Shown: positions 1 through 32,400 of the stretch, in pieces | How positions within the stretch are numbered: the stretch's first letter is position 1 | How the letters are laid out: each line of letters starts with the position of its first letter | Assembly (NCBI GenBank): GCA_017447265.1 | Contig: JAFSOA010000002.1 | Location: 1 to 35,076 of the forward strand | DNA length: 35,076 bases | Origin: Bacteroidales bacterium | GTDB lineage: Bacteria > Bacteroidota > Bacteroidia > Bacteroidales > UBA932 | Reading direction: 5' to 3' | Notes under the pieces: model-generated | Seen by the model: only the letters and a program-made list of their open reading frames with translations | What the model was told of the DNA's origin: nothing | The model's database searches: none | Program-made: the position numbers and the translations under genes

Positions 1-971
1 ACCATCTGTGTCGCGCAAAAGAAATGGAATTATTACGGATCTGCGAAAAGCAGCGTGATGACCAGACCTATCTCACCCATTCTGTTGATCTCATCTTTAT
101 CTCATTGGATTGGCGCGAAAGGGACCGTTCATCTATCTCATTCCTTTCGCGGCAGGGAATCCAGCAAATTTCCCCAAAAAGCAGTCACGAAAGGGAAAAA
201 GCGGCGCCCAGATGCCTTTCGTGACAAGGTCGACGACGCAATGACGGGGGTTATCGAAATGAATCCTTCATCCAGGCGCTTCCAGCGCAGGGCTGGCAGC
301 ATGGAAACCGTTTTCGTGTACATCGCCCACCCGTTTTTTCCGCTGAGCCCAGAAAGCCGTTAACGACGAAGTGATGTCGCTCAGCTTCTACCTGAAAATC
401 TGGGACATCTGTCGCTGCTGAGAACGGTCGACCATTCGCACCCGGATTACTGCGGAGGTTTAACCGAAGAGCGTTCCCGGCTGATTCGTCGAAGAACTGA
501 GGCCCCAGCCAGCCGCGCTGGCGGATGGCGCTTGGAAGCCGCTACCAAGCGACAACCGCTCACGATAAACTAATGAAGTGTCTGGCTCCGGTGGTCTTGG
601 CTGCAATCCAGAAAGCAGGCGCACTAGAATCCCTGGAATTACGGCTCATTCGCTCCGCCCATGAGCAGGCACCAGTCAAAAAGAACGTGATAGACAGCAT
701 TGTCCAGTTCCTGCAGATGGGAACCTGAACCGTCATCGGCGACTTCGAACGGGTCTACCGCATCCTCGACTCAATTCGAACCGTCCATTTCCGTCAAAGT
801 GTGCCCGCTTCATCGCGCCAAAGTGCATCCTGAAGGCAATCATCTGGGCGCAACCTACTTATCGTAGCGGGTGTGCACACTTCACTCCGACCATACGGAT
901 ACCCAAATAGACCCACTCCGGGCACACTTTGGCGGAAAGAACCGCAGAGCCACATGTATTTGGGTGCACTA
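1..971. other. Gene-poor accessory region with insertion-sequence-like repeats
   Basis: I see no convincing gene in this stretch. The open frames at 55-363 and 525-728 (plus) do not resemble any family I know and have no promoter of the Bacteroides type in front of them. What can be seen is repeat structure. There is a perfect 11-bp inverted repeat (184-194 with 215-225), and the 19-bp inverted repeat described separately at 788-938. The base composition and lack of coding signal suggest a decayed mobile element or an old insertion point, but this is inference. Confidence 0.5.
788..938. repeat. 19-bp inverted repeat, insertion-sequence end-like
   Basis: The left arm at 788-806 (TTTCCGTCAAAGTGTGCCC) and the right arm at 920-938 are reverse complements with one mismatch. 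Between them lie two further related blocks containing CCAAAGTGCA and GTGTGCACACTTC. Repeated short motifs near an end are typical of several insertion-sequence families, IS21 among them, but no transposase gene is visible beside them. The right arm's last 15 bases (ACACTTTGGCGGAAA, 924-938) occur again in the same orientation at 5298-5312. The element may therefore be an IS remnant or a small non-autonomous unit. Confidence 0.45.
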
Positions 972-6618: not shown

Positions 6619-8366
6619 AAACGGGGCGAAATGATTCCCGTCCGGACTCGATGTCGACGCTGACGCTCATCCGCCGCTTCAACCGCGGCTGCCAGGGCTT
6701 GTTCGTCGTGACCGTCCTGCTCCTGGTCGGGGATATGGCTTCCTATCTTCTTCCGCCTTTCTTCCAGCAGATATTTACCGACAATATCATCACACACAAG
6801 AATCCGGAGTGGTTCGGGCCGTTGATGGCCGTCTATATCCTGCTTTTCGTCCTGGAGGTGATGATCTGGCTGCTGCTGAATCCCCTTCGCAGGAGGGAGC
6901 TCGCCAAACTGGGCGTCAGCGCTTCTTCCCGCTATATCCTGAGCCTGCTGCAGTTACCCATGAGCGCCATTGACCGTTTTTCTTCCGGAGAACTGGTCGC
7001 GCGCTACTCCAGCATCAAGAACGTGGTGACGACGATGGACCGTTTCTCCTACGCGCTCGTCCTGGTTATTCGTCCGGTCATCTGTGCCTGGCTGCTGATG
7101 CTCTACAGCTGGAAACTGGGACTCGTGGTGATCTTCTCGATGGTGCTGCTGGTGATCGTGATGCGGACGACGTCGCGCAGCATCAAGAAGAAAGCCCGGA
7201 GTTCGGAGGTGACAGATGCCCGTCTGCAGGGCATGACGATGACGGGCCTCAAGAATATCGAGACGATCAAGTCGATGGGAGGAGAACATATCTTCTATGC
7301 CGAATGGGAGAAGACCTATGTGACCGCGCTCAACGCGCGCGTGCGCACGGCGATTACGACGATGGGCATCGGCTCCCTTCCCCTGCTGGTCCTGAACCTG
7401 TGCAACGCCTTGATCCTCTGCCTCGGCGCCTGGTATATCCTGCAGGGTGAGCTGACGCCCGGTATGCTGCTAGCTTCACAGGCCCTGGCAACCAGCATCA
7501 CCTTCCCCATCAATTCGGCGGTGAATGCAACCCAGGAAGTCTACCGCTCCCAGGCCGCCATGGAGCGACTGGAAGAGGTGGAGGCGGCCTGCGGGGACCA
7601 TCGCCTGAAAATCCCTGCCATCAACGATCTGCCGGAACGCCCCAAACTCCGGGGAGAAGTGGAACTGCGCAATGTCACCTTCGGTTATGACCGCAGCCTG
7701 CCTCCGATTCTCAAGAACTTTTCGATGAAAATCCGTCCGAGCGAAAAAGTCGCTTTCGTCGGTTTTTCCGGTTGCGGCAAGAGTACCATCGCCAAACTCA
7801 TCTCCGGTCTCTATGAACCCTGGGAAGGAGAGGTTCTCCTCGACGGAATCCCCGTACAGCAGCTCAACCGGGCTGTCAAAAACAATTCCCTTTCGGTCGT
7901 CAACCAGGACATCACCCTTTTTGAAGGCACCATCGCCGATAATATCAAGATGTGGGACGATTCCATCGAAGATTTTTCGATGGTGCTGGCCGCCAACGAT
8001 GCCCAGATCCATCAGGACATCGCCAACCGTCCCGGTGCCTATCAGACCCTGCTGACCGAAAACGGCAAGAACTTCAGCGGCGGACAGCGGCAGCGCATCG
8101 AAATCGCCACCGCCCTGGCCAAGGATCCCACCATCCTGATCATGGATGAAGGAACCTCCGCCCTCGACTCCAAGACCGAACAGCTGGTCATGCAGCATAT
8201 CGGAAGCCTGGGCATCACCACCATCCTGATCGCCCACCGCCTGAGTACCATCCGTGACTGCGACTGCATCTATGTGATGGAACACGGACATGTCTTGCAA
8301 CAGGGCACGCACGAGGAACTGTTGCACCAGGAAGGACTCTACCACGAACTGATGAAATACGCCTGA
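6615..8366 (+). CDS. NHLM-type ABC transporter, permease-ATPase, without C39 peptidase
   Basis: A 583-aa half-transporter of the type-1 exporter fold. A six-helix membrane domain occupies about residues 15-320. The ATPase domain has Walker A GFSGCGKST (about 383-391), signature NFSGGQRQR (about 486-494), Walker B ILIMDEGTSALDS with the catalytic Glu, and H-loop LIAHRLST. It most resembles the first transporter of NHLM peptide-export loci. Those usually begin with a C39 cysteine-peptidase domain of about 150 residues that removes double-glycine leaders; here it is missing and the protein starts almost directly with the first membrane helix. The start overlaps the previous stop (ATGA), and the second transporter follows after three bases. 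The two ATPases may form a heterodimer. Confidence 0.85.
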   Translation: MKTGRNDSRPDSMSTLTLIRRFNRGCQGLFVVTVLLLVGDMASYLLPPFFQQIFTDNIITHKNPEWFGPLMAVYILLFVLEVMIWLLLNPLRRRELAKLGVSASSRYILSLLQLPMSAIDRFSSGELVARYSSIKNVVTTMDRFSYALVLVIRPVICAWLLMLYSWKLGLVVIFSMVLLVIVMRTTSRSIKKKARSSEVTDARLQGMTMTGLKNIETIKSMGGEHIFYAEWEKTYVTALNARVRTAITTMGIGSLPLLVLNLCNALILCLGAWYILQGELTPGMLLASQALATSITFPINSAVNATQEVYRSQAAMERLEEVEAACGDHRLKIPAINDLPERPKLRGEVELRNVTFGYDRSLPPILKNFSMKIRPSEKVAFVGFSGCGKSTIAKLISGLYEPWEGEVLLDGIPVQQLNRAVKNNSLSVVNQDITLFEGTIADNIKMWDDSIEDFSMVLAANDAQIHQDIANRPGAYQTLLTENGKNFSGGQRQRIEIATALAKDPTILIMDEGTSALDSKTEQLVMQHIGSLGITTILIAHRLSTIRDCDCIYVMEHGHVLQQGTHEELLHQEGLYHELMKYA

Positions 8367-8369
8367 GCT

Positions 8370-10475: not shown

Positions 10476-11887
10476 AAAAGTGGCTTGTCTTGATTCTTCT
10501 CTGCGGATGGCCGCTTCTCTGTCCGGCACAGAGCCTGGAAGAGGTGATCCGGCTGGCGCAGGACAGCGCGATCACCGCGTTCCAGAGCCGCTACGAATAC
10601 GAATACGCACAGGCAAAGCACGCGCGCTTCGAGGCGCTGCGCAAGCCGCAGCTGCAGCTGGACATCACGCCGAACTACCTGCACTTCGTCAACGACCTGT
10701 CGCGCTACTACGTGTATACCCGCGACTTCGACCGCTTCTCCACCGCCGCGCAGCTCAAGCTGACGCAGAAGGTCCTGGGCCTGGGCGGCGAGGCCTATGT
10801 GGGCAGCCAGGCCATCTGGAGCGAATATTTCGCCCGGGACAACATCGAGCGCCCGCGGGACTTCGTGGCGGCGCCCCTGGTGGTCGGCTACCAGCAGTCC
10901 CTCATGGGCTACAACCCCTATCGCTGGGAGAAGACCGCTGAAGACCAGCGGCTGGAAGCCGCCCGTAAGCAGCACGCCTACGAGCTGCACCGCATCGCCG
11001 AAGAGGCCACGCGCCGCTTCTTCCGGCTGGCCTGTGCACAAGGCAAGGTCGACATGTACGAACGCAACAAGCAGAATGCCGACACGCTCTACGCCATCGC
11101 CCGGGAAAAAGCCAGCATCGCCATGGTCACGCTGGCCGAGCTGCGTTCCCTGGAACTCCAGCGGCTCAACGCCACCAATGCGCTGATCAGCGCGCGCAAC
11201 GAAGAGCAACTGGCCCGCGAATCGCTGCTGGCCTACCTGCGCATCGACGACAGCGAGCGTTTCAGCCAGCGGCTGATCGTCCCGCACGATACCGGCGAGC
11301 TGCTCATGAGCGACGAAGAAGCGCTGCAGCTGGCTTTGAGCAACAGCCCCGCGCTGGAGCATCGGCAGCTTGCGCTGACGGAAGCGCGCCAGCAGCAGGA
11401 GAAGGCCCGCCGCGAAGCGGGCGTCAAGCTGGGCGTCGACCTCAACGTCGGCATGCAGCAGATGAGCAGCCGCTTCGTGGAAGCCTACGCCAAGCCGCAG
11501 TTCTACATGCTCGGCGCCGTCACGGTCAGCGTGCCGATCCTCGACCACGGCGCAGCCAAGAAGGGCTATGCGGCAGCCAGTTCCTGGAAAGCCCGGGAAG
11601 AAAAGGCGCTGCAGGAGGAAGAGCGCGCGCTCGGCGAGGACGTGCGCACGACGCTCGAGAATCTCCGGTCCCACCGGCAACTGCTGGCCCAAACGGCCGA
11701 GGCCGTCACCATGGCCGACGACGTGTTCCAGCTCATGGCCGACGACTACGCCAACGGCCTCTGCGACATCAATACCTACTCACTGGCGCAGAACCGGCGC
11801 GACAACGCCTACAACCAGTACCTGACGGCGCTGGCGGCGTACTGGACCACCTATTACCACCTCTTAACATTGACACAGCATGAATAG
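10472..11887 (+). CDS. TolC-like outer-membrane efflux channel
   Basis: A 471-aa outer-membrane factor. It has a signal peptide (cut after CPAQ near residue 20). Two similar halves follow, each of long alternating helices (for example LEEVIRLAQDSAITAFQSRYEYEYAQ and DEEALQLALSNSPALEHRQLALTEARQQQ). This is the internal duplication of TolC/OEP proteins, and the repeat ends in an asparagine/tyrosine-rich tail. The trimer would form the exit duct for the ABC pair. The start overlaps the preceding stop codon (ATGA) and its own stop overlaps the next gene by eight bases, so it belongs firmly to this exporter. Confidence 0.85.
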   Translation: MKKWLVLILLCGWPLLCPAQSLEEVIRLAQDSAITAFQSRYEYEYAQAKHARFEALRKPQLQLDITPNYLHFVNDLSRYYVYTRDFDRFSTAAQLKLTQKVLGLGGEAYVGSQAIWSEYFARDNIERPRDFVAAPLVVGYQQSLMGYNPYRWEKTAEDQRLEAARKQHAYELHRIAEEATRRFFRLACAQGKVDMYERNKQNADTLYAIAREKASIAMVTLAELRSLELQRLNATNALISARNEEQLARESLLAYLRIDDSERFSQRLIVPHDTGELLMSDEEALQLALSNSPALEHRQLALTEARQQQEKARREAGVKLGVDLNVGMQQMSSRFVEAYAKPQFYMLGAVTVSVPILDHGAAKKGYAAASSWKAREEKALQEEERALGEDVRTTLENLRSHRQLLAQTAEAVTMADDVFQLMADDYANGLCDINTYSLAQNRRDNAYNQYLTALAAYWTTYYHLLTLTQHE

Positions 11888-12725
11888 GCCTCTCATCTTT
11901 TTTGCCTTGCTGGCCACCCTGGCCGCCTGCCAGTCCCGTCCGGCCAAGGTGCAGGAAACCCCGCTGGAAGCGGCCGTCACGGCCGAAGAGCCCGTCGCCG
12001 CCGAGCCCCGGAACCAGAACCTGCAGCGGACCATCGAAGCCGAAGGCTTCTCGAGCAAGGGAACCATCGAGGCCGTCACGGAAGTACCCGTCTACAGCCG
12101 CATCAACGAGCAGATCGTCGAATTCAACATCGAGCTGGGCCAGCGCATTCGGAAGGGCCAGGTGGTCGCACGACTCAGCCAGGCTGCCCTGAACGACCGC
12201 ATCGCACGCGGCCAGGCCGAACTCGAGCGCGCCGAATACCAGTACCAGGCCGTTCTGATGGGCCAGGGCTACAAGCGCAACGAACTCGAGCAGGCGCCCG
12301 AGGACATCCGCAAGCAGGCCCGCATCAACAGCGGCTACAACCTGGCGGCGGCTTCGCTGCAGCAGTTGGAGCACGAGCGCAGCTACTGCACCATCACCGC
12401 GCCGCTGACGGGCGCCGTGAGTCGCATCGACGCCACGCTCTACAGCGCCGCCCTACCCGGCGTCGCGCTCTTCTACATCGTGGACACCGAACACCTGAAG
12501 GTCTGCTTCGACGTGCTGGAAAACGAACTGCACAAGTTCCAGCCCGGCACGAAGATCCAGGTGATTTCCGTGGCCTGGCCGGACGAAGTGCATCCGGCTG
12601 TCATCTCGGCCATCAGCCCGGTCGTCGAAAAGAACGGCATGGTCCATCTCGAAGCGACCCTCTCCCCGCACCCGCACCTGATGCCGGGCATGACGGCCAT
12701 CGTGACAATGGGGAATGCCGGATAA
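11880..12725 (+). CDS. Lipoprotein membrane-fusion adaptor (HlyD/RND type)
   Basis: A 281-aa adaptor with a lipoprotein signal (LAACQ, Cys 17). It has the first lipoyl half (VTEVPVYSRINEQIVEFNIELGQRIRKGQVVARL), a helical hairpin of about 60 residues rich in Glu/Gln/Arg, and the second lipoyl half (YCTITAPLTGAVSRID). A barrel domain ends with HLMPGMTAIVTMG. It differs from the HlyD-like protein at the start of the operon by being lipid-anchored and of the RND-adaptor layout. Two adaptors in one exporter operon are unusual; they may act in sequence or bridge to the TolC protein. It is the last gene of the operon; I see no strong terminator before the fabD promoter. Confidence 0.8.
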   Translation: MNRPLIFFALLATLAACQSRPAKVQETPLEAAVTAEEPVAAEPRNQNLQRTIEAEGFSSKGTIEAVTEVPVYSRINEQIVEFNIELGQRIRKGQVVARLSQAALNDRIARGQAELERAEYQYQAVLMGQGYKRNELEQAPEDIRKQARINSGYNLAAASLQQLEHERSYCTITAPLTGAVSRIDATLYSAALPGVALFYIVDTEHLKVCFDVLENELHKFQPGTKIQVISVAWPDEVHPAVISAISPVVEKNGMVHLEATLSPHPHLMPGMTAIVTMGNAG

Positions 12726-17461: not shown

Positions 17462-17535
17462 GGTGGATGTAGTTCAGCTGGTAGAGCATCGGATTGTGGT
17501 TCCGAGTGTCGTGGGTTCGAGTCCCATCATCCACC
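17462..17535 (+). tRNA. tRNA-His (GTG anticodon)
   Basis: A standard cloverleaf: acceptor arm GTGGATG (17463-17469) pairs with CATCCAC (17528-17534). The D arm has AGTTCAGCTGGTAGAGC, the anticodon loop is ATTGTGGTT with anticodon GTG, and the T arm contains GGGTTCGAGTCCC. The extra G at 17462 opposite C17535 is the G-1:C73 pair that identifies histidine tRNA. CCA is not encoded. Confidence 0.97.
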
Positions 17536-17592
17536 CGCTAATCGCCGAGCCTTTTAGGCCCGGCGATTTTTTTGCGGGTGGATGATGGGACT
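17520..17592. repeat. Inverted 19-bp copy of the tRNA-His 3' end
   Basis: The last bases of the tRNA and its flank (17520-17538, AGTCCCATCATCCACCCGC) recur as an exact reverse complement at 17574-17592, enclosing the terminator. Together they can form one long nested hairpin. Mobile elements that insert in tRNA genes leave direct, not inverted, copies, so this arrangement is not an ordinary attachment site. Confidence 0.85.
17541..17574 (+). terminator. tRNA-His terminator
   Basis: ATCGCCG at 17541-17547 pairs with CGGCGAT at 17561-17567, extended inward by GCC/GGC, and seven T follow. A good rho-independent terminator directly behind the tRNA. Confidence 0.85.
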
Positions 17593-17730: not shown

Positions 17731-18861
17731 GTGAAACAAGGTTTCATTATTGCCTGCACGGCCTGCGTGCTGCTTAGTTTGTGGCTCTCGCAGTACATTC
17801 CTGCCGATATTTTCGACAAGATTGTTTCCCCGCTTCTGTTCGCAGGTACTGTAGCCGTCGCCTTTTTTGGCGCGTTCCTGGTTTTTAAACACGCGGAGGG
17901 GATGCGCATGCGCAAGGCATGGGGCTGGGCTCTTCTGGTGTGGGGAATTGCGGACAGCTTCTACCTCCTGGGCTGGGCCCTGGCTCCCTCGCAGGTGATG
18001 GACATCGGGGCGCATAATCTCACCACGTATGAACTTCTCATAGGAAACGTGCTGGGCTGGGTGCTGCTGCTGTATCCCACGGAGGCGCTCAGGCCCGGAT
18101 GGATTTCTTTCAGGCATGTCCTGTGGCATCTGTTGCCCATGTTCTTGCTGGTGGCCCTGGACTACGTTTTCCCGTTCAGCCTGCGCTTTCTCATCACGCT
18201 CTATCCTATTGTCCTCATCGCGTTCCTGATTTCCCACGTCAGGGCCTACAGAACCTGGTGCGAGGAAAATTTCTCCACGCTGGATGACATTGATGTCCAG
18301 TGGCTTGTTCGCTATTTGTGGATGGTTGTCATGGTGGGGGGACTCTACCTGTACATTTGCCTGGCCCATCACCCCAGCCGCGGCTTTACCCAGCTGTGGT
18401 TCACCATCTTCATGTTTGCCTACAGCACGGAGCAAATCCTTTATCGCAAGGACCCGTGGGCGATGGTGCGTCGGCAGGAAAAGTCCCAGGAAGCAGCGCC
18501 GGAGGCCGGCTCCTCGCCCGAGCACAGTGAACTCCGCCAGAAACTGGACCGCTGGATGGAGCAGGAAAAGCCCTATGCCAATCCGGCTTTCCAGCTGGCA
18601 GACCTGAGGGCGGTCCTGCCCCTGAACCGGACCTATCTTTCCCAATTTGTCAAGGCGGAATACGGTTGCTCTTTCTACCAGTGGGTAAACCAATATCGCA
18701 TTGCGGAGGCCAAGCGCCTGAAACTGGCGCATCCGGGGCTGAAAACGGACGAGATTGCAGCGCGCTGCGGCTTCTCTTCCCGCACGGTTTTCTCCAACGT
18801 ATTCACCCGCGAGGAGGGCCTTTCGCCCCGCGAATGGTTTAAACAATGTAATCCTGCGTAA
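17731..18861 (+). CDS. Membrane-anchored AraC-type transcriptional regulator
   Basis: A 376-aa regulator. I start at GTG 17731 (VKQGFIIACTACVLL...). The frame extends further upstream to 17572, but that part crosses the tRNA terminator, palindromes and the promoter. The N-terminal two-thirds hold about seven hydrophobic helices, a layout common in Bacteroidota AraC proteins that sense at the membrane. The C-terminus (about residues 270-376) is a typical double helix-turn-helix: NRTYLSQFVKAEYGCSFYQWVNQYRIAEAKRLK, then TDEIAARCGFSSRTVFSNVFTREEGLSPREWFK. Its last codons are the start of a 51-bp repeat that stands in front of the peptide genes at 19005 and 22034. This makes it the best candidate for controlling those two cassettes, but that is inference. 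Confidence 0.85.
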   Translation: MKQGFIIACTACVLLSLWLSQYIPADIFDKIVSPLLFAGTVAVAFFGAFLVFKHAEGMRMRKAWGWALLVWGIADSFYLLGWALAPSQVMDIGAHNLTTYELLIGNVLGWVLLLYPTEALRPGWISFRHVLWHLLPMFLLVALDYVFPFSLRFLITLYPIVLIAFLISHVRAYRTWCEENFSTLDDIDVQWLVRYLWMVVMVGGLYLYICLAHHPSRGFTQLWFTIFMFAYSTEQILYRKDPWAMVRRQEKSQEAAPEAGSSPEHSELRQKLDRWMEQEKPYANPAFQLADLRAVLPLNRTYLSQFVKAEYGCSFYQWVNQYRIAEAKRLKLAHPGLKTDEIAARCGFSSRTVFSNVFTREEGLSPREWFKQCNPA

Positions 18862-18895
18862 AAAAATACGCCTGAAAAGACATTCTGCGTCAAAA
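18845..18895 (+). promoter_or_regulatory. Cassette upstream element, copy 1
   Basis: 51 bp, identical at 48 positions to 21901-21951. Both copies hold a pair of direct repeats of the form ATYCTGCGTMAA; here they are at 18851-18862 and 18882-18893, 31 bp apart (about three helical turns). Direct repeats on one face of the helix upstream of a -33 box are what AraC-type activators bind. The first bases are also the last codons of the AraC-type gene. Confidence 0.6.
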
Positions 18896-18910
18896 AACCG
18901 CTTCCGCCTA

Positions 18911-18942
18911 TTGCACGGGGGGGGGGTAATATTCTATCTTTA
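18911..18942 (+). promoter_or_regulatory. Promoter with a G10 tract in the spacer
   Basis: TTG (18911-18913), 21 bases, TATCTTTA (18935-18942). The spacer contains ten G in a row (18917-18926). Loss of one or two G would bring the spacer to 20 or 19, the best-known distance in this phylum. Homopolymer tracts between promoter boxes act as phase-variation switches in other bacteria. Confidence 0.55.
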
Positions 18943-19004
18943 CTACGATATTGCCAGGCGCGCTCTGGCTTCTCGTAAAGAGATACAACAACACACATAT
19001 CGAA

Positions 19005-19142
19005 ATGAAAAAAACAATCAAAACAACTTATGCTCCTCCGGCTTCAGAAGTCCTGGAGCTGAAGACGCAGGGCATCATCTGCGCCAGCGGTCTGGGTGAC
19101 CCCACCGATTATCCCGGTGTTCCTGATCCGTTTGGTTTTTAA
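19005..19142 (+). CDS. Short peptide with GIIC motif, cassette 1
   Basis: A 45-aa peptide, start ATG at 19005; a longer frame from 18951 crosses the promoter region. It begins MKKTIKTTYAPPASEV and continues with LELKTQGIICAS, then a Gly/Pro/Asp-rich tail. It shares the pattern Y-x-x-P-A-x-x-V-x-E-L-K-x-x-G-I-I-C-x-S with the 43-aa peptide at 22034. There is no signal peptide or lipobox. From memory, short proteins of the form MKK..Y..P...V.E often stand in front of fimbrillin-like lipoproteins in Bacteroidales; their function is not known to me. The lipoprotein gene follows after 18 bases. A leader-core peptide or a translation-coupling gene are both possible. Confidence 0.65.
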   Translation: MKKTIKTTYAPPASEVLELKTQGIICASGLGDPTDYPGVPDPFGF

Positions 19143-19145
19143 TGT

Positions 19146-19152
19146 AAGGAGG
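19146..19152 (+). promoter_or_regulatory. Strong Shine-Dalgarno site
   Basis: AAGGAGG eight bases before ATG 19161. Strong Shine-Dalgarno sites are rare in Bacteroidota, so this one is notable. It also decides the start codon. Confidence 0.6.
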
Positions 19153-19160
19153 ACATGATT

Positions 19161-20240
19161 ATGAAGAAAGTATTTGGATTCATTGGATTGGCCCTTGCAT
19201 TGGCCGCCTGCAACAATTTAGAATCAGTAAACAAGTTCGATCAAACTGCCGATGGTATTACCATTACCGCTACATTGGCGCCGAAGTCGGCATTCACAAA
19301 AGCCATAAGCGATCAGTCCACCTATCTTAAGGTGGATTGGGCCGTGGACGAGCATCTCGCCATCCTCTACACGAAGGACGGTAACCAAATGGCTGATGCC
19401 ACCATCACAGCCGTAGACGGTACCGGTGCCGCCACTATCACCTTCTCCGTTGTAGATGGCACGCCCGACAACACCGCTTGTACGATTATATATCCGAAGT
19501 CTGCTGCGAAGGACGACCATTCTGGCGTGAAACCTGCCGGTGTATTGTTGGCGTCTCAAGACGGCACCCTCAATGCCAATTTGGACGTTCGCGTGGGCGC
19601 GGGTACCATTCAAACGGCTACGCCCAGCCTGACTGTTACCACGCAGCCTGAGCCCCAGTTTGCAATCTTCAAGTTCACCACGAAGAATGAAGCAGGTTCA
19701 GCCACCATCAGCGTGAAACCGTTAGCTATTTCTATTGGTACGCTGGACTATACTGTCACGCCTTCGACGGCTACGAGCGAACTATATGTAGCCTTGCCGG
19801 CTGTTTCAAGCAAGACTGTTAGTTTCTCGGCCATAAACAGCAGCGATAGCAAGATGTACACTTGCTCCAAGAGTGTGACCTTCAGTGCAGGCAACTATTA
19901 TCAGTCCACCTTGAAGATGGCTCAGTCAACCAAAACATTCCTTATCGTATCAAAGGGAACGACTAATTTGAGTGGAGACAAACTCTTCTACTATACTCCA
20001 GGTGAAACCTATCAGGAGGCGGTGGATAACAATCCGGAGAACAAGGTTGACAGCTATGGATGGGGCACTTGGTCTAATGAATATAATCAGGCCACGATAT
20101 TTTTTAAAGAGAATGAGGGGTCGGGAACAATTCAGAAAGACATGAGCAGAAATGGAGTTAGAAATGCCTATTCTGGAGAGTTCGCATTGGGCAGCACTGT
20201 AAAGGCTGACGGTACCTACGTGTTTTTGGATACTTATTAG
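19161..20240 (+). CDS. Fimbrillin-like surface lipoprotein, cassette 1
   Basis: A 359-aa predicted lipoprotein. The start at 19161 (MKKVFGFIG...) is supported by AAGGAGG at 19146-19152, eight bases away; the ATG at 19155 is only two bases from it. The lipobox is LAAC (Cys 16 counted from MKK). The body has the look of fimbrillin/Mfa-type proteins: an opening beta strand with ITITATLAPKSAFTKA, the phrase VDWAVDEHLAILYTKDG, then ATITFSVVDGT and CTIIYPKSA. These are precursors of fimbrial subunits or other surface lipoproteins. It is preceded by the 45-aa peptide gene and followed by a hairpin at 20285-20317. The C-terminal 100 residues are not familiar to me. Confidence 0.8.
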   Translation: MKKVFGFIGLALALAACNNLESVNKFDQTADGITITATLAPKSAFTKAISDQSTYLKVDWAVDEHLAILYTKDGNQMADATITAVDGTGAATITFSVVDGTPDNTACTIIYPKSAAKDDHSGVKPAGVLLASQDGTLNANLDVRVGAGTIQTATPSLTVTTQPEPQFAIFKFTTKNEAGSATISVKPLAISIGTLDYTVTPSTATSELYVALPAVSSKTVSFSAINSSDSKMYTCSKSVTFSAGNYYQSTLKMAQSTKTFLIVSKGTTNLSGDKLFYYTPGETYQEAVDNNPENKVDSYGWGTWSNEYNQATIFFKENEGSGTIQKDMSRNGVRNAYSGEFALGSTVKADGTYVFLDTY

Positions 20241-20284
20241 TCTCCGCGCTTAATGCCCGAAGCCCTATTGGGCATAAAACCAAC

Positions 20285-20317
20285 CCGCCATCTCTTCAAA
20301 CCGCGAAGAGGTGGCGG
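20285..20317. terminator. Hairpin between convergent genes
   Basis: CCGCCATCTCTT (20285-20296) pairs with AAGAGGTGGCGG (20306-20317), one G-T pair. The sequence behind it is CTTTCATT, with only a short T run. On the minus strand a TTTT follows a few bases away. It probably terminates the cassette-1 lipoprotein gene and perhaps also the ATPase gene from the other side. Confidence 0.55.
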
Positions 20318-20448
20318 CTTTCATTATGCATCACAGACAAATTAATCACTCGAATAACACCGCAACCCCATATTGGAATCACGGTGTAAATCTAAAAGAT
20401 GCTTACGCAATGGGAGATCTGTCCTGTTCATCAGGACGGAGATTAATT

Positions 20449-21741
20449 TTACCATTTCAGGCAGCCTAAGGGGATGATTTTCACGCCGTCCTGGCGGGTG
20501 TATGCCATTGTGCCGCCTGTAAGGACGATGAGCTGGTCGGGTTCGCGGATGGGAACTTGCTTTTCGGTAAGGTTGTGTTCGCGGATGAGCTGGACAATTT
20601 CCTTCAGATGGGTGGCGCCTTCTTCTATCTCCTGGCTGCCGAGTTTGCATTCTATGAGGGCGTAGCGGCCGTCGCCAAGGTGGAGGACCAGGTCGGCTTC
20701 CAGGCCGTAGCGGTCGTGGTAGTAGGACAGTTCGCCGCCGAGGTTCTGGGAGTAGGCCCGAAGGTCCCTCGCACACATATTTTCGAAGATGAAGCCGAAG
20801 GTCTTCAGCTGGGTCTGCAGGGACTCGGGCGTGGCTCCGAGGGCTGCAACGGCGATGGACGGATCTGTGAATTCCCGCTTGAAGCCGCTGCGGATAGCAC
20901 TCTTGTTGCGGATGGGCGGGCACCAGGCTTCCAGGTCATTGATGACAAAGAGTTTGTTGAACGCGCCCACGTAGTTGTCGAAGGTGTCCATGGAGAGGTT
21001 ATATTCCTCCGAGGCCACGAGATCTGCGCGCATGGTGGATTTCTTTGCGAGAGTGGAAATATTCCTGGACCAGGCTCGGAGAATCATCCGGGCGGTGCGC
21101 TCGTCACGCTGGACGCCGTCCACGCGGGAGATATCATCGGCGCAAAGGGTGCCTACGTATTCTGCGGCGGTGAGGAGTTTTGCTTTGGGCGTTCTGGCAT
21201 ACAAGGATGCTGGCCATCCGCCGCGGCAGGCCAGAAAGATAAGGTCTTCCACGGATAGCGTAGATTGGGCACCGTCTATGGAGTAGTCCGGATTGTAGAA
21301 GATCTCCCGCAGGGAAATCTCTCCGCTGGATTCCTTGGATTCCCAGAGGCTCATGGGAAACATCTTCATCCGAGCGATACGTCCGGTACCGCTGTGCTTG
21401 ATCTTCTTCTTGTCCACGACGGTGGAACCGGTGAGGATGTAGAGGCCTACGTCTGAACGGCTGTCCACGGTGTCGCGGACAGCATCCCACAGGTTGGGGG
21501 CATCCTGCCATTCGTCGATGAGCCGGGGATTCTCTCCACGCAGCAGCAGCGAAGGTTTGGTGGCGGCTGTGGCCAGATATTCGGCCGCATTGTCCGCGTC
21601 CTGCATCTTGATGATGCTCTTGGCCTGCTGGGAGGCGGTTGTTGTCTTGCCACACCATTTGGGCCCTTCCACGAGTACGGCTCCGAAGGCATCCAGGCGG
21701 TCCGACAGCATTACGTCGGCGGCTCTCTCAAGATATTTCAT
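20449..21741 (-). CDS. DUF4143-type AAA ATPase
   Basis: A 430-aa protein of the AAA_14/DUF4143 type, widespread in gut Bacteroidales and often found as an accessory single gene. Walker A is GPKWCGKTT (about residues 26-34), and Walker B is in LIDEWQDAPNLW (about 94-105). A sensor-like YILTGS follows. The C-terminal domain has YGLEADLVLHLGDGRYALIECKLG, where the D and ECK residues form the arrangement of a PD-(D/E)XK nuclease-like core. Function is not established; an NTPase with nuclease-like tail is typical of defence or mobile functions. It lies between the two fimbrillin-like cassettes in opposite orientation. In front of it are a -7 box and three 23-bp repeats. Confidence 0.85.
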   Translation of the reverse strand: MKYLERAADVMLSDRLDAFGAVLVEGPKWCGKTTTASQQAKSIIKMQDADNAAEYLATAATKPSLLLRGENPRLIDEWQDAPNLWDAVRDTVDSRSDVGLYILTGSTVVDKKKIKHSGTGRIARMKMFPMSLWESKESSGEISLREIFYNPDYSIDGAQSTLSVEDLIFLACRGGWPASLYARTPKAKLLTAAEYVGTLCADDISRVDGVQRDERTARMILRAWSRNISTLAKKSTMRADLVASEEYNLSMDTFDNYVGAFNKLFVINDLEAWCPPIRNKSAIRSGFKREFTDPSIAVAALGATPESLQTQLKTFGFIFENMCARDLRAYSQNLGGELSYYHDRYGLEADLVLHLGDGRYALIECKLGSQEIEEGATHLKEIVQLIREHNLTEKQVPIREPDQLIVLTGGTMAYTRQDGVKIIPLGCLKW

Positions 21742-21764
21742 TTCAAATCAAGGTTTTCCGATCG

Positions 21765-21772
21765 TAAAGATA
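21765..21772 (-). promoter_or_regulatory. Promoter -7 box of the ATPase gene
   Basis: On the minus strand this is TATCTTTA, about 24 bases before the start codon at 21741. It fits TAnnTTTG except the last base. The tandem repeats begin 28 bases further upstream, where a -33 box and operators would lie. Confidence 0.55.
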
Positions 21773-21800
21773 CGTCTCTTTTCCCGGATTATCAAACATA

Positions 21801-21869
21801 ATCGGCGTTTTTGTGGCAAATCGATCGGTGTTTTTGTGGCGAATCAATCGGTGTTTTTGTGGTTAATCA
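21801..21869. repeat. Three 23-bp tandem repeats
   Basis: Three direct copies, 21801-21823, 21824-21846 and 21847-21869, of ATCGGYGTTTTTGTGG followed by a variable YRAATCR end; a further ATCG follows. They differ at only a few positions and have no spacers, so they are not a CRISPR array. Their place just upstream of the ATPase promoter suggests an operator or iteron-like binding site. Confidence 0.85.
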
Positions 21870-21900
21870 ATCGCGCGAGAAGTATAGGGTTCACATAATA

Positions 21901-21951
21901 AATGTAATCCTGCGTAAATAAAAAAGCCTGAAAAGACATTCTGCGTCAAAA
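21901..21951 (+). promoter_or_regulatory. Cassette upstream element, copy 2
   Basis: Matches 18845-18895 at 48 of 51 positions, including the bases that encode the final codons of the AraC-type protein (Cys-Asn-Pro-Ala-stop), although no AraC gene is here. The direct repeats ATCCTGCGTAAA (21907-21918) and ATTCTGCGTCAA (21938-21949) are again 31 bp apart. The short palindrome GCGTA..TACGC seen in copy 1 is not kept, so the direct repeats are the conserved part. Confidence 0.6.
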
Positions 21952-21997
21952 TCTGCCCGGGCCGCCCGCCTGGACAGATTATTTTTAATAAGTTTGT

Positions 21998-22005
21998 TAG
22001 ATTTG
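21998..22005 (+). promoter_or_regulatory. Promoter -7 box of cassette 2
   Basis: TAGATTTG, an exact TAnnTTTG, 49 bases after the second direct repeat and about 28 bases before the peptide start codon. No clear -33 box; unlike cassette 1 there is no G tract. Confidence 0.65.
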
Positions 22006-22033
22006 TCACATACGCAATCCCATACATACTATA

Positions 22034-22165
22034 ATGAAAGCAAAAAACAGAATCTTTTATGAAGCTCCTGCGACGGCAGTCGTGGAGCTGAAATTTGAGG
22101 GCATTATCTGCCAAAGCAATGTTAATGCTACGATGGATGGTGTCTTTAGCGTGGAGACGATCTGA
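22034..22165 (+). CDS. Short peptide with GIIC motif, cassette 2
   Basis: A 43-aa peptide, MKAKNRIFYEAPATAV, then VELKFEGIICQS, then a tail NVNATMDGVFSVETI. It is related to the 45-aa peptide at 19005: the first 28 residues follow the same pattern, while the tails after the GIIC-x-S motif are unlike each other. A conserved front and variable tail is what one would expect of leader and core, though other explanations (a regulatory leader peptide, for example) fit as well. The lipoprotein gene starts 43 bases downstream. No signal peptide is present. Confidence 0.65.
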   Translation: MKAKNRIFYEAPATAVVELKFEGIICQSNVNATMDGVFSVETI

Positions 22166-23531: not shown

Positions 23532-23853
23532 ATAATCTGGGCTCACAAACCTGGCCGGAGGCTCACCGGCCGGGGAAAACCCTGCCGCCAAGCAGGCGCG
23601 AACAGCCGCAGGGGCTGACAGCGGGGCGACGATTTGTGAGCGGCAGGAAATACGCGGCCAAGCGGGAGTCCCGTCTCGTGACGGCGCTGGTTCTTCGACC
23701 GTTAGCGGAGCGTAGCGACAGCTAAAAGGGAGAAGTTCGCCGTCAAGGGACGGACGCGCAGGCGGCGCCTGCCGCGAACCATGAGGAGAAACGCTGTCAG
23801 CCCCTGCGCAGGGAGCGCCGGGAGACAGGATCAAAGTCACTCCTTCTCTACTT
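23532..23853. other. Structured intergenic element between convergent genes
   Basis: No gene is seen. The stretch is bounded by a perfect 17-bp inverted repeat (CGCAGGGGCTGACAGCG at 23607-23623, reverse complement at 23792-23808). Inside are further hairpins: CCGTC-TCGT-GACGG, CCGTC-AAG-GGACGG (near 23740-23752) and GCAGGCG-GCGCCTGC (near 23759-23773). To the left lies GGCCGG-AGGCTCA-CCGGCC. The internal arms CCGTC/GACGG could also pair with each other across the element. It could be a repeat element (MITE or BIME type), a structured RNA or a bidirectional terminator. Confidence 0.6.
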
Positions 23854-27066: not shown

Positions 27067-29343
27067 TTACATGGCGCTGAAGCTGACGGCGGCGGAATGC
27101 CCGTTGGCGTCGACGACGGTCAGGACGTGGGGACCCGGGGTGGGGACGACCTTGATCTTGTGCTCGCCGTGGGCCGTTTCACCCAGGTAGTCGCCGTCGA
27201 GATGCCAGTAGAGCGTCGCTTGCGGATCGCTGTGGGCGGCGGAGAACACGACCCCCTGGCTTCGTGCGTCCAGCGCCACGGGCGCTGCGACCGTCATGCC
27301 GTTCTGCGGATAAATGATCTCGACCGCACCCGAAGCGCGGAAACCCGCGTAGTCGGGATGATAGGGCGGCAGCGGGCGGTAATCGCTGTGCGAGCGCATG
27401 TAATACCACTCCTGGGCGGGCGGCAGGACGAAGCGCGACACATGCCGGATGTCGGCCACCGGCCAGCAGTCGCTGTTGACCTGCCAGCGTTCGTCGGGAC
27501 TCAGGTGGACCAGCCGGTGGTAGGGACAGGGATCGGGGCGTTGCGGGGCGCGGGGCACCCATTCCGACACGACCCCGTCGGCTTCGCAGAGCGCGGTGGC
27601 GGGATGCCCGCTCAGGCGACAGCAGACCACCTCCTCCAGCTCGTCGCCGGGCCGTTCGAACCAGCGGGTGGGCGGCAGCAGGCTGAACAGGTCGAACATG
27701 ACCGGTGCGGCATAGCCCACGCCGGTGAGCAGCGGCCTCCCTTCTCCGTTGCAGTTGCCGACCCAGACCGCCACCACATAGTCGGGCGTGGCGCCCACTG
27801 CCCAGGCGTCGCGGTTGCCGTAGCTCGTGCCCGTCTTCCAGGCCACGGTGCGGCTCGAGTGGAAGGTATGCCAGTCGCCTTCTTCTTCCGGCCGGCTCAG
27901 TTCCGTGAGCACGTCGAAGGTGCACCAGACGGCGCCCCGCGAGAGCGGCGTCCGTCCGTCTTCGCCGTTGAGCCGCTGCGCCATGCGCGCATAGGCCGCG
28001 GCCAGGTCGCCGAGCTTGATCTCAGCGCCGCCCAGGATGAGCGAGAGGCCGTAGGTGTCGGCTCCGCGGGTGATGGTCGTGAAGCCCGCCTTCTGCAGCA
28101 GGTCGATGAATTTCTCCACGCCGTAGTCGTAGAGCATGCGCACCGAGGGTACGTTGAGGGAGCGCCGGATGACGTCGCGTGCGGGCACGGCGCCGTCGAA
28201 ACTGTGGTTGAAGTTGTTGGGTGTGAAGTCTTTGTAATGGAACGGGATGTCGGAGACCAGCATCCCGGGCAGGAGCTGGCCCTCGTCGAGCATCGCGCCG
28301 TAGAGCAGGGGCTTGAGCGTGCTGCCGCTGCTGCGGGGCGCCTGCACCACATCGACATGGTCGCCGTGGGCGCGGGAGCCGTGCCCGGCGTTACCGATAT
28401 ACACAACGGGCTCTCCCGTGTGGACGTCGAGGATCACGGCGGCCAGGTTGTGCACTTCGTTGGTGGCGAAGACCTCGTGGTGGCGCTGCACGATGGCTTC
28501 GGCGCGCTGCTGCAGGCTGAAGTCGAGCTGGCTCCGGTACAGGCGGTCACCCTGCTGCCTGCGCAGGGTCTCGAGATAGTGGAAGGCGATCTCGGGCAGG
28601 GGATGCGGCTTGTCGGGAAGGGGCTCGTCCTTGGCCAGTTCGCAGGCGAGTTCGTCGATTTCACCGGCCTGGCAGAGCTTGTCGAGCAGGAAGTTGCGCT
28701 TGGCCAGCAGGGCGTCGCGGCGGCTGCCCGGGTGGATGAGAGCCGGAGCGTTGGGCAGTACGGCCAGGGTGGCGCTTTCGGCCCAGGAGAGTTCGTCGGC
28801 CGGCCGGCCGAAATAGCGCCAGGCGGCGGCTTCGATGCCGACCACGTTGCCGCCGAACGGAGCGTTGGCGGCGTAGAGGGCGAGGATCTCGTCTTTGTCC
28901 AGATAGATTTCGAGCCGCAGCGCCAGCAGGGCTTCCAGCACTTTCTCGCCCACGGTGCGGGGCTTGTCGCCCCGGCTCAGGCGGATGGTCTGCATGGTGA
29001 GGGTGCTGGCACCGCTGCGGATTTCCCCGCTGCGGGCGTTGAGGCGCAGGGCGCGGGCCACGGCCAGCGGGTCGATGCCGGGATGCCGCCAGAAACGCTT
29101 GTCTTCGAAGGTGACGATGGCCTTGGCGAATTTCTCCGGCACGCTGCCGGCGGCGGGAAAGCGCCACTGCCCGTCGGCGGCGATGCGGGCGCCCAGCAGG
29201 TGCCCGTCGCTGCTCTCGAGCACCGCACAGACCGGATCGTCGAAAAGCCGTCCCGGACGCAGTGCAATGGCGATGCCCGAGAGCAAAGTCACCAGTGCGG
29301 CGAAAAGCAGCAGATTCTTTTTGTTATTCCGAAGCCAATTCAA
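27067..29343 (-). CDS. pbpC: Penicillin-binding protein 1C
   Basis: A 758-aa bifunctional peptidoglycan synthase. I start it at TTG 29343 (read as Met, then NWLRNNKKNLLLFAALVTLL), because no ATG precedes the membrane helix. The open frame continues far upstream only as the antisense shadow of the neighbouring gene. The glycosyltransferase domain (GT51) has the catalytic Glu in TFEDKRFWRHPGIDPLAVARA and GASTLTMQ. The transpeptidase domain has SSGSTLKPLLYG (SxxK), SLNVPSV (SxN) and WKTGTSYGNRDAW (KTG). At the end is a BiPBP_C domain with Cys-rich CCRLSGHPATALC in front. It is divergent from the alpha-2-macroglobulin gene, the partner of pbpC in many bacteria. Confidence 0.9.
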   Translation of the reverse strand: MNWLRNNKKNLLLFAALVTLLSGIAIALRPGRLFDDPVCAVLESSDGHLLGARIAADGQWRFPAAGSVPEKFAKAIVTFEDKRFWRHPGIDPLAVARALRLNARSGEIRSGASTLTMQTIRLSRGDKPRTVGEKVLEALLALRLEIYLDKDEILALYAANAPFGGNVVGIEAAAWRYFGRPADELSWAESATLAVLPNAPALIHPGSRRDALLAKRNFLLDKLCQAGEIDELACELAKDEPLPDKPHPLPEIAFHYLETLRRQQGDRLYRSQLDFSLQQRAEAIVQRHHEVFATNEVHNLAAVILDVHTGEPVVYIGNAGHGSRAHGDHVDVVQAPRSSGSTLKPLLYGAMLDEGQLLPGMLVSDIPFHYKDFTPNNFNHSFDGAVPARDVIRRSLNVPSVRMLYDYGVEKFIDLLQKAGFTTITRGADTYGLSLILGGAEIKLGDLAAAYARMAQRLNGEDGRTPLSRGAVWCTFDVLTELSRPEEEGDWHTFHSSRTVAWKTGTSYGNRDAWAVGATPDYVVAVWVGNCNGEGRPLLTGVGYAAPVMFDLFSLLPPTRWFERPGDELEEVVCCRLSGHPATALCEADGVVSEWVPRAPQRPDPCPYHRLVHLSPDERWQVNSDCWPVADIRHVSRFVLPPAQEWYYMRSHSDYRPLPPYHPDYAGFRASGAVEIIYPQNGMTVAAPVALDARSQGVVFSAAHSDPQATLYWHLDGDYLGETAHGEHKIKVVPTPGPHVLTVVDANGHSAAVSFSAM

Positions 29344-29355
29344 GCAATTATTCCC

Positions 29356-29363
29356 TATCTTTG
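29356..29363 (+). promoter_or_regulatory. Promoter -7 box of the alpha-2-macroglobulin gene
   Basis: TATCTTTG, an exact TAnnTTTG. The ATG is at 29404, so the leader is about 40 bases. This box stands inside the 5' leader of pbpC. Confidence 0.7.
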
Positions 29364-29373
29364 CAATATATAG

Positions 29374-29381
29374 CAAAATTA
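29374..29381 (-). promoter_or_regulatory. pbpC promoter -7 box
   Basis: On the minus strand TAATTTTG, an exact TAnnTTTG; transcription would start near 29370, about 27 bases before the TTG start codon. It overlaps the plus-strand leader, so the two divergent promoters face each other within about 25 bases and may interfere. Confidence 0.6.
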
Positions 29382-29403
29382 GGCAAAAATTAACTTGAAC
29401 GAT

Positions 29404-32400
29404 ATGAAAAAAATCACCTTTGCCATGATCATGGCGCTCGCATTCTTCGGCCTCTGCGCCTGCGGCGGCGGAAGCGAGGCCCCTGAAAGTGTAGCCGACT
29501 TCTCCCGGGAAATCCGGGTGGACGACCCGCTGACTGTACGTCTTTTCGACACTTTCAACCTGAAAGAGGACGACCAGACGGTGGCTGCGGCCCTGAAGGC
29601 CATCAGCGTGTCCCCGAAAATCGATTTCGATGTCCAGGTCGTCGATCCGCAGACCCTCTGCATCGTTCCGAAACAGCCGCTCGAATACAACACCGACTAC
29701 AAGGTGACGGCTGACTTCGGCGCCCTGGCCGGCAAGTCGGGCGGCAAAAAAACTTATACGGTCAAGACCCTCGCTCCGGTGCTGTTGTTCGACTACAGCA
29801 AGCTGACCGGCTATCCCGGCGTCGACGACCGCTTTCATATCGACGTGGAGATCACCTCGCCCGAGGTGCTCGACGACAAATACCTGGAGAGCGGCTTCTC
29901 CGTGAAGGGGGCCGACGCCCAGGTGTCCTGGGTCCATGGCGAGGACGGCCGTGCCCACAGCGTGACGGTGGGCAACATCGCGGCCACCGACAAGAAGGTC
30001 ATGCTGGAACTGGTCCACAACTGGCCCCGCTATGCCGCAGAAGGCTCCCGCCGCTTCGAAGTGCCCGTCAAGGGGCAGTTCAGCGTGGTGGACAGCGAGG
30101 TCAAGTCCGATCCCTACGGCTTCGAGATCGCCTTCTCCTCCGCCCTCGACCCCAAGCAGGATTTCAAGAGCCTGGTGTCGATGCCGGGTGCCGGACGCCT
30201 CTCCTTCATCGTCAATGAGAACGTGCTGAAGATCTCCCCGGCCGTCAAGGCGGAAGACAAGCAGTTCGTCTCCGTCAGCAAGGCCATCCGCAGCACCAAG
30301 GGCCAGAAGCTCGAAGAGGACTTCGACCGCTGGTTCGCGGTCCCTTCCGGCGAACCGATGGTCAAGTTCCTGTCGCGCGGCGCCGTGCTGCCTTCCTCGG
30401 GCGGCATGAACCTGCCCTTCCAGGCCATCAATTATGCGAAGGTGCGCGTGCGCGTGAAACGCATCTATGAAAACAACGTGCTGCAGTTCCTGCAGGAGAA
30501 CCGCCTCGGCGAGACCTATTGCTACACGGGCAACGTGGCGCGCGTGGTGCTCGACACCACCCTCACCCTCGGCGAGACCAACTCCGCGAAACTGCGCAAC
30601 CTCAATACCTACGGCCTGAATGTGGCCGACCTGGTGAACGTGCAGCGCGGCGCCATCTACCGCCTCGAGATCCGGGGCGTCGAGCCGCTGGCCGAGTTCC
30701 AGGAAGACTACTATGAGAGCGACTACTACTTCGGCAGCTACAGCGACTATGAGAACCGCGTGCGCAACCTGCTGGTCTCCGACCTGTCGGTCATCGCCAA
30801 GGGCTCCGAGAAAGGCGAGTACACGGTGTTCGTGACCGACATCCTCTCGGCACAGCCCGTCAGCGGCGCCAAGGTGACGCTCTACAACTCCGTCAACCAG
30901 GTGATCGCCGAAGGCAGCACCGGTTTCGGCGGCCGTTTCTCCTGCACGGTGAAAGACGACGAAGCCCGCACGGCCGTCATCAGCAAGGGCGAAGACAAGA
31001 GCTACCTCTCCATGGGCAGCGGCGCGGCCATCTCGATGAGCAGCTTCGAGGTGGACGGCAACGCTTCGCGCCAGGGCCAGAAAGGCTTCATCTTCGGTGA
31101 GCGCGGCGTCTGGCGTCCGGGCGACGATATCCACCTGACCTTCATCTCCATGCTCGACGAGGGCGTCCTGCCCGCCGGGCACCCGGTGACGGCCACCCTG
31201 AGCAACCCCCAGGGCCAGGTCATCGCCACGCAGGTCAACAACAGCGGCTTCGACGGCATGTACAGCTTCACCTTCACCACTTCTCCCGACGCCCCGACCG
31301 GCAACTGGGAGGCGGCCGTGACGGCCGGCGGCCAGACCTGGTACAAGACGGTGAAGATCGAGACGGTCAAGCCCAACAATATCGTCATCGACCTGAATCT
31401 CAACGATAAGCCCGTGGTTCCGGGCAACGACATCCGCGGCGATATAACCGCCCGCTGGCTGGTGGGCAACCCGGCCAAAGACCTGGAGACCCGTGTCGAC
31501 GTGAGCTTCACGCGCGGCAAGACCAGTTTCAACAATTACAAGAACTACGTGTTCGAAGACCGCTCGCGCAGCTTTACCGCCCAGGAAATGGATCTGTTCA
31601 AGGGGCGGACCGACGCCAACGGCAAGGTCTCGTTCCGCACCAATGTCTCCGCTACGGGCAACGACGTGCCCGGCATGCTGACGGCCCTTTTCACGACCCG
31701 TGTCTTCGAGAAGAGCGGTGATTTCAGCGTGGACCGCTATACCACGACCCTCTCGCCCTACGACACCTACATCGGCCTCCAGGTTCCGACGCAGGAGAGC
31801 GAATGGGGCGAGGATTATCTCGACAAGGCCCGCAGCCACAGCTTCAAGCTGGCCGCCGTGGACTACCAGGGCAACCCGGTGAAGCAGAACGTGAAGGTGA
31901 ATGTCGAGGTTTACAAGATGGGCTGGAGCTGGTGGTGGAGTTCTTCCGACGGCCTGGCTTCCTATGCGAAGGATTCGTACAATGCTCCGTTCAAGGAGCT
32001 GAGCGTGACCCTGACGGGCGGTGCCGGCGAGTTCAAGATGGACTTCTCGAAAGAGGAGAGCGGCTTCTGGTTCTTCCGCGTGGTCGATCCGAAGGGTGGA
32101 CACGCCACCTCTTCCGTGGTCATGGTCCGCGATTCCTATGAACAGGCCGGCGAGGGCAGCTCCGATGCTGCCATCCGCCTGCCGATGAGCCTCAACAAAG
32201 ACAAATTCAACGTGGGTGAGATGGCCCGGCTGGTCATTCCTTCGACCAGCGGTGCCCAGGCCCTGGTTTCGATTGAAAAGGGCGAACGCGTGCTCCGGTC
32301 GTTCTGGGTGGAATGCAAGGGCGACAAGACCGAAATCGAGATTCCGATCGAAGCCGGCATGGCTCCGAACGTCTATGCGAGCGTGACCCTCATCCAGCCT

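Follow-up and report, generated by a model that had tools for sequence, protein, structure and literature searches.

The window analyzed here, a 35,076-nucleotide stretch of contig JAFSOA010000002.1 from a Bacteroidales bacterium, contains the gene of an AraC-type regulator, predicted to be membrane-embedded, followed by two units that each consist of a short peptide gene and a lipoprotein gene (Table 1). A 51-bp element stands in front of each unit. This repeat is most likely a conserved operator, and comparison across genomes makes it likely that the protein encoded at 17731-18861 acts through it to switch exchangeable surface units, probably as an activator. A first-pass annotation of this DNA had proposed one regulator for two surface units, together with a duplication in which a second regulator was lost. 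The first proposal appears well supported, as the site co-occurs with the regulator across genomes and recurs at unlinked loci; the second is not supported, lone sites without a regulator being common in relatives.

The Repeated Element and the Regulator

The two copies of the element (18845-18895 and 21901-21951) are identical at 48 of 51 positions (94.1%), exactly as first annotated, and the window repeat listing gives 91% over 56 positions. Each copy contains two direct half-sites, CTGCGTAAA starting at 18854 and 21910 and CTGCGTCAA starting at 18885 and 21941. The offset of 31 bp, or three helical turns, had been noted before and holds more widely: among the 33 sites tabulated across genomes it is 31 bp in 25, 32 bp in 5 and 30 bp in 3. 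The motif CTGCGTMAA occurs four times in the window, always as a half-site, where 0.64 occurrences are expected and four were reached in one of 100 shuffles. The window's own genome (G000; other G numbers denote comparison genomes) measures 2.13 Mb and is 78.66% complete, so that extra operator copies are possible in the missing part. The whole-genome search suggested by the first-pass annotation returned only the two window copies of the 43-nucleotide (nt) pair at up to three mismatches, with none for the reversed control. A looser pair pattern adds one match with three mismatches (C7:91114), which precedes an ArgR-like gene as judged by eye and was kept out of the site table as a chance occurrence. 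A search of 39 further genomes from the window's genus did not find the 43-nt pair.

The regulator comprises 376 amino acids and ends in a double helix-turn-helix (HTH) that scores above the Pfam cut-offs, both for HTH_18 (PF12833; 66.3 bits against 33.6, E 3e-18) and for HTH_AraC (34.8 bits against 26.6). In a structural model built from 18 sequences (predicted local distance difference test, pLDDT, 78.7), about 7-8 long hydrophobic helices precede the HTH and are taken as membrane helices. Most of the best Foldseek matches of this model are AraC-family DNA-binding domains, and the helical part gives weak matches to rhodopsin-like bundles (E 0.1 and above). The Pfam scan recognized no sensor domain, no soluble ligand-binding domain, and neither a histidine kinase nor a receiver domain. 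The stop codon of the gene (TAA, 18859-18861) falls within half-site 1 of copy 1, in agreement with the earlier remark that the gene ends inside the element. Orthologues at E <=1e-40 are present in 14 of 398 genomes of the family; 12 of these 14 belong to another genus, and the window regulator may therefore have been acquired. A sample of the order yielded orthologues in 2 of 295 genomes, one of them G000, and the named genomes hold eight loci, at least two of which lie on contigs also met in the family search. The nine other AraC matches in G000 align mostly over the HTH at 24-39% and were rejected as second regulators. Directly before the regulator gene, the 3' end of the tRNA-His gene recurs inverted 29 bp on (17520-17592; 22 nt, 95%).

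Does the half-site pair travel with the regulator? Twenty-one regulators were compared, 14 from the 398 family genomes and the remainder from G040, G042-G046 and G647. Aligning orthologous loci, as had been suggested, and reading past the end of each gene, the same pair is met downstream in 17 of the 21, a count that includes weak pairs (G042-G045, G647), distant pairs (G327, G397) and one gene split between contig ends (G392). A clear pair is kept beside regulators that are only 51-57% identical (G341, G352, G340), and weaker pairs beside those at 47-49% (G042-G045). The regulator stop lies on the half-site as the TAA of GCGTAA in G000, G040, G279, G322, G353 and G398, and of GAGTAA in G341, but as the TGA of TTGAYTCTGCGTAA in G352, G340 and G033. 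Since two different reading frames are used, it is the half-site DNA that is conserved, not the codons. Half-site bases also shift with the regulator group, which counts in favor of an operator: at position -7, G is found in 18 of 22 half-sites of the window's regulator group and T in 34 of 44 of the rest.

Across the 398 family genomes, the 43-nt pair at <=2 mismatches gives 19 matches, which fall in 9 of the 14 regulator-bearing genomes and in none of the 384 others (Fisher 3e-15). At <=3 mismatches the figures are 9/14 and 4/384 (reversed control 0/14 and 3/384), and for the loose pattern TGCGTNAA-N20..24-TGCGTNAA they are 10/14 and 20/384 (reversed control 0/14 and 12/384). In a mixed set, a match occurs in 12 of 20 regulator-bearing genomes and in none of 14 chosen genus-g22 genomes for which no orthologue is listed. 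The matches in the 20 (loose) and 4 (strict) genomes without a regulator, and one at G042:C25:9515, were kept out of the site table. Lone sites, with no adjoining regulator, are found in G279, G322, G340, G352, G353, G392, G397, G042, G043 and G046. On contig C7 of G046 (L165), three successive half-sites at 31-bp steps precede a secreted-looking protein, a homologue of which (by eye) is regulator-linked in G647.

It could be argued that regulator and unit were recently duplicated in place, leaving copy 2 as a relic, and that the repeat has no regulatory role. The copies are separated by 3 kb and have in common the bases encoding the regulator's last four residues and stop, and some lone sites of relatives (G353 lone, G397 C84) retain a few extra bases resembling the regulator 3' end. 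However, only the 51 bp align between the window units, whose peptide tails and lipoproteins differ, and upstream of copy 2 no regulator sequence is recognizable beyond the half-site. The same DNA is moreover kept with the 51-57% identical regulators, in different reading frames and at unlinked places. What had been read as last codons retained by copy 2 are the bases of half-site 1, on which linked genes end in two frames. Conservation at lone sites thus appears to have largely refuted this very improbable explanation. It is possible that the operator module itself was copied from a regulator-linked site. In G397:C84 (L110, about 4680-4716), some 30 nt like the regulator 3' end precede the operator, behind a SpoIIE-type gene, and may be a relic of copying.

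Table 1. Features of the regulator locus and the two units in the window
Feature	Position	Strand	Basis
tRNA-His (GTG), just upstream of regulator	17463..17536	+	ARAGORN
AraC-type regulator, predicted membrane-embedded, 376 aa (amino acids); C-terminal HTH_18/AraC domain	17731..18861	+	Pfam, model, Foldseek
Putative operator copy 1, half-site 1 (ATGTAATCCTGCGTAAA; holds regulator stop codon)	18846..18862	+	sequence, site table
Putative operator copy 1, half-site 2 (AAGACATTCTGCGTCAA; 31 bp from half-site 1)	18877..18893	+	site table
Hairpin region, operator to -7 box; -33-like TTG 18911-18913 in loop; z -2.0, 5 T	18897..18927	+	folding
Putative -7 box TATCTTTA, 5/6 of TAnnTTTG, 49 nt after TGCGT of half-site 2	18935..18942	+	site table
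Peptide 1, 45 aa; head ends GIIC, variable tail ASGLGDPTDYPGVPDPFGF	19005..19142	+	translation
Lipoprotein 1 (P0002), 361 aa	19155..20240	+	LPAM_1 E 0.0017, slightly below cut-off
AAA_14/DUF4143 ATPase, between both units; not proposed as regulon member	20449..21741	-	Pfam
Putative operator copy 2, half-site 1	21902..21918	+	genome pattern search, site table
Putative operator copy 2, half-site 2	21933..21949	+	genome pattern search, site table
Terminator-like hairpin with T-run before unit 2; -33 position without TTG; z -4.0, 6 T	21950..21980	+	folding
Putative -7 box TAAGTTTG, 6/6, 47 nt after TGCGT of half-site 2	21989..21996	+	site table
Peptide 2, 43 aa; head ends GIIC, tail QSNVNATMDGVFSVETI	22034..22165	+	translation
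Lipoprotein 2 (P0003), 440 aa	22209..23531	+	homology

Three tandem 23-bp repeats with a GTTTTTGTGG core (21800-21873) lie between the ATPase gene and copy 2 of the element.

Promoter Geometry and the Hairpin

The two direct half-sites share the core AYYCTGCGTMAA and would face the same side of the DNA helix, where the cytoplasmic HTH domain probably binds them as a dimer. A TTG resembling a -33 element stands 23-25 nt after the TGCGT of half-site 2 in 26 of the 33 sites; window copy 2 is among those that lack it. Farther on, 47-49 nt after the TGCGT of half-site 2, a box agreeing with TAnnTTTG at five or more of its six defined positions is found in 25 of the 33 sites, and at all six in 20. 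Other 4-nt windows hold such boxes far less often (at >=5/6 a mean of 1.3 and a maximum of 8; at 6/6 a mean of 0.05 and a maximum of 1). TAnnTTTG is the Bacteroides -7 consensus given in PMC4747536. The first-pass annotation had placed the -7 boxes 42-49 bases downstream; for copy 2, comparison with other sites makes TAAGTTTG at 21989 the more likely box over TAGATTTG at 21998.

The near-fixed position of the operator upstream of the core promoter, about 24 nt from the -33-like TTG, fits an activator that contacts RNA polymerase. Could the regulator instead be a repressor that keeps the units silent, or mainly control something else? The AraC family does include repressors. The operator, however, lies upstream of the -33 and -7 elements rather than over them, at a fixed spacing, which is the usual place for an activator, and the hairpin ahead of the promoter would suit a unit whose expression has to depend on one. 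Repression is on balance unlikely.

This hairpin was folded at 32 distinct sites, a set that contains the linked site of G647, which is outside the 33. Its loop covers the -33 position in 31 of the 32, with 17.2 expected from shuffles. The first segment chosen was centered on the -33 position, which favors such a result, so the shuffle control and a longer, off-center segment were added; with the latter the loop covers -33 in 27 of 32 (10.1 expected). A z-score below -2 is reached in 20 of the 32 sites (17-19 in repeat runs), and 16 fit a rho-independent terminator by combining z < -2 with at least five T in the next 10 nt. The arm sequences differ between groups, as expected of a terminator and not of a protein site. 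The hairpin may shield the promoter from upstream transcription, in which case the unit should depend on the regulator.

In the unit 1 promoter, a tract of ten G (18917-18926) separates the -33 TTG from the -7 box. Only five tracts of nine or more G exist in G000, another of them upstream of the peptide unit G000:C17:50645, the homologue of which in G279:C20 carries seven G. Phase variation of the unit 1 promoter by this tract is possible. No strong inverted repeats appear around the window promoters in the window repeat listing. The inverted pairs that span them are short or weak (for example I12, 14 nt at 86%; I7 and I8, 17-20 nt at 75-82%), and the longer ones reach 72-81% with arms more than 1.6 kb apart.

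Surface Units and Their Probable Exchange

A short GIIC peptide gene and then a lipoprotein gene follow each copy of the element, as first described. The label "fimbrillin-like" given to the lipoproteins fares less well: neither P0002 nor P0003 matches a fimbrillin family in Pfam or NCBIfam. The low-confidence P0002 model (pLDDT 52) does have two Bacteroides cell-adhesion structures, 3ufi and 3t2l, as its best Foldseek matches; the match to 3ufi has an E of 7e-5 but template modeling scores of 0.26 and 0.31. Homologues of both proteins are found behind lone sites in relatives, that of lipoprotein 1 at 93% identity behind an imperfect site in G397, and that of lipoprotein 2 at 48% over 281 amino acids in G352.

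The cargo behind linked and lone sites consists of peptide-lipoprotein units, OmpA-type barrels (PF00691, E 7e-12), an NMT1 protein with a dCache-SpoIIE protein, and further proteins with signal-like N-termini. The first-pass annotation had held that finding the element without peptide genes would count against the regulatory link. Such sites do exist in relatives, yet 27 of the 33 sites are closely followed by an exported-looking protein or a peptide-lipoprotein unit (judged by eye), so that the regulon becomes broader and the link is not refuted. The peptide itself is no marker of the regulon and was rejected as such: of eight family matches in G000 just two follow the operator, and most of the matches in other genomes (6-10 in five genomes, none in G068) likewise do not. 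Its core has a ratio of nonsynonymous to synonymous polymorphism (pN/pS) of 0.49, against 0.78 and 1.44 in the other frames.

The arrangement of the units suggests that cassettes are exchanged while promoter and peptide head stay constant as one module. In G279, G322 and G353 the regulator-linked loci align at 94-97% identity between -1500 and +49..51 before the alignments break off; similarity resumes downstream (G322 and G353 at 96% from about +514, G279 +2359 with G322 +60), as if different inserts lay in between. Two lone sites with the same flanking genes (G352 lone and G392 lone2) share 95% identity from -227 through the EGxxC codons, beyond which peptide tails and lipoproteins differ. 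Conversely, the 95% identity between window unit 1 and its G397 homologue begins inside the peptide gene, and BLAST finds no match upstream of that; the OmpA-type cargo that is linked in G040 and lone in G353 is 86% identical from -16 to +902. In a survey of 26 units, with 50 internal boundaries of matches of at least 100 nt, 10 of 23 match ends fall between -8 and +10 nt when counted from where the EGxxC codons end; on the same scale, 9 of 27 match starts lie at the operator 5' edge (-227 to -216). Five related units of G352 and G392 account for eight of the ten ends; two separate breaks are seen between G279 and window unit 2 and between G000:C17 and G279:C20.

Peptide-tail similarity tracks lipoprotein similarity (Mantel r 0.84, p 2e-4), whereas for the peptide heads the relation is weak (r 0.16, p 0.016) and vanishes given the tails (partial r -0.01); the pairs in this set are non-independent and two lipoproteins were cut at 60 amino acids. 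This correlation could partly reflect shared descent of whole units, and the DNA breakpoints are the stronger evidence for exchange.

Could the element then be a recombination or transposition site for unit exchange, its linkage to the regulator being incidental? Alignments do break at operator edges, as in the three linked loci above, and several lone sites are close to contig ends. Against this stand the tight phasing to the -33 and -7 elements, the absence of the site at <=2 mismatches from the 384 family genomes without a regulator, the lack of a recombinase adjoining most sites, and the second break location inside the peptide gene, where no operator exists. We regard it as highly unlikely, and an operator remains the preferred reading.

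Under the operator reading, an envelope signal would cause the regulator to switch on both window units and, in relatives, between one unit and a few. These units would be exchangeable cassettes, constant in operator, promoter and peptide head and variable in peptide tail and lipoprotein. A more tentative proposal, which we consider possible though somewhat doubtful, is that a constant stretch of about 220 bp, running from the operator through hairpin and promoter to the peptide head, acts as a single module, and that homologous recombination at both ends docks new lipoprotein cargo with its matching tail under one membrane sensor, as in an expression-site system for surface variation. The 10-G tract of unit 1 could in addition switch its promoter, and the peptide would be a two-part adaptor, its tail serving as dedicated partner of the lipoprotein.

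Several observations speak against the proposed operator and regulon. Six of the 33 sites have no exported gene close behind by eye (both of G322, G353 linked, G392 C6, and the lone sites of G340 and G397), and eight have no good -7 box at 47-49 nt (both of G322, G398, the third of G352, G392 C6, G340 linked, and C84 and lone of G397). The regulator locus of G033 retains one half-site only; in G357 and G320 neither pattern finds the pair anywhere in the genome; and G046 has none beside the regulator gene and one elsewhere. In the count of 17 among 21, loci L060, L064, L048 and L013, with no pair adjoining the gene, were scored as misses. The linked pairs of G042-G045 and G647 are degenerate and were recognized by eye, the pairs of G327 and G397 lie some distance from the gene, and the gene of G392 is split across contig ends. 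Reversed controls match 3 (strict) and 12 (loose) of the 398 genomes, none of them regulator-bearing. The Fisher values are overstated because the patterns were drawn from sites already seen and related genomes are non-independent. The membrane model is of moderate confidence only, and activation is told from repression by operator position alone.

Other stretches of the genome have a related layout. In G000:C19 (L153, 51000-57000), another AraC-type gene with a hydrophobic N-terminus directly precedes a peptide-lipoprotein unit, and in G000:C16 (L150, 1-12000) four TTGACGC repeats 20-22 bp apart (about 6165-6250) lie upstream of such a unit and adjoin a divergent AraC-type gene; because of these two arrangements, AraC control of peptide-lipoprotein units may be a wider theme. 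Within the window, 5395-12725 encodes two ABC transporters, an outer-membrane efflux protein and an HlyD-like protein, as for peptide export. Downstream of lipoprotein 2, a long imperfect inverted repeat (23607-23808) has a similar stretch (by eye) at the start of G000:C16 and is perhaps a dispersed repeat. A 2488-residue minus-strand frame (27067-34533) was rejected as one gene, being a PBP1C-type gene that continues as an antisense open frame.

What began as a repeat in one draft genome can now be tested as the regulon of an AraC regulator, predicted to be membrane-embedded, for which operator and promoter geometry in Bacteroidales are precisely laid out. Probably, a membrane sensor of a gut-type bacterium controls a small, reshuffling set of cell-surface proteins, which suggests a route by which Bacteroidales may re-wire them through a constant promoter and peptide head and a variable tail and lipoprotein. 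The match between tail and lipoprotein also opens to direct test what a widespread, unnamed family of small peptides does.

Comparison with Known Systems

A literature search of titles and abstract beginnings, covering few subscription papers, found no description of this regulator, operator or peptide family. Likenesses to several known systems can nevertheless be drawn. The FimA/Mfa fimbrillins of Bacteroidales are also lipoproteins, and the P0002 model is likewise beta-rich, with Foldseek matches to 3ufi, 3t2l and Parabacteroides 4jg5, which presumably belong to the fimbrillin superfamily. Differently from FimA/Mfa, P0002 and P0003 have no curated match, and the low-confidence P0002 model also matches Gram-positive pilins. 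TIGR04094, named in NCBIfam as a YSIRK-adjacent AraC-like regulator and thus a regulator beside surface-antigen genes, is a Gram-positive family; it matches weakly over the HTH only (E 1.3e-7, 31.0 bits against a 200-bit cut-off) and serves as an analogy.

With the one-component activators of the AraC/XylS family (AraC, RhaS/RhaR, ToxT type), the regulator shares the C-terminal double HTH (PF12833) and, as the half-sites suggest, paired direct binding sites upstream of the promoter. Unlike in those proteins, its sensor would be a membrane domain of about 7-8 long helices with no recognized soluble ligand-binding domain, although such an N-terminal domain is not required across the family. The spacing of three helical turns and the overlap of half-site 1 with the regulator's own stop codon are further differences.

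Bacteroides hybrid two-component systems combine envelope sensing with an AraC/XylS-type output (PMC10766802), whereas the 376-residue window protein has no kinase or receiver domain. The invertible promoters of Bacteroides are alike in the variable expression of surface molecules and in the -7 consensus TAnnTTTG (PMC4747536). Differently from these, only short or weak inverted pairs span the window promoters, and variation would come about by the exchange of cassettes, perhaps together with the G-tract.

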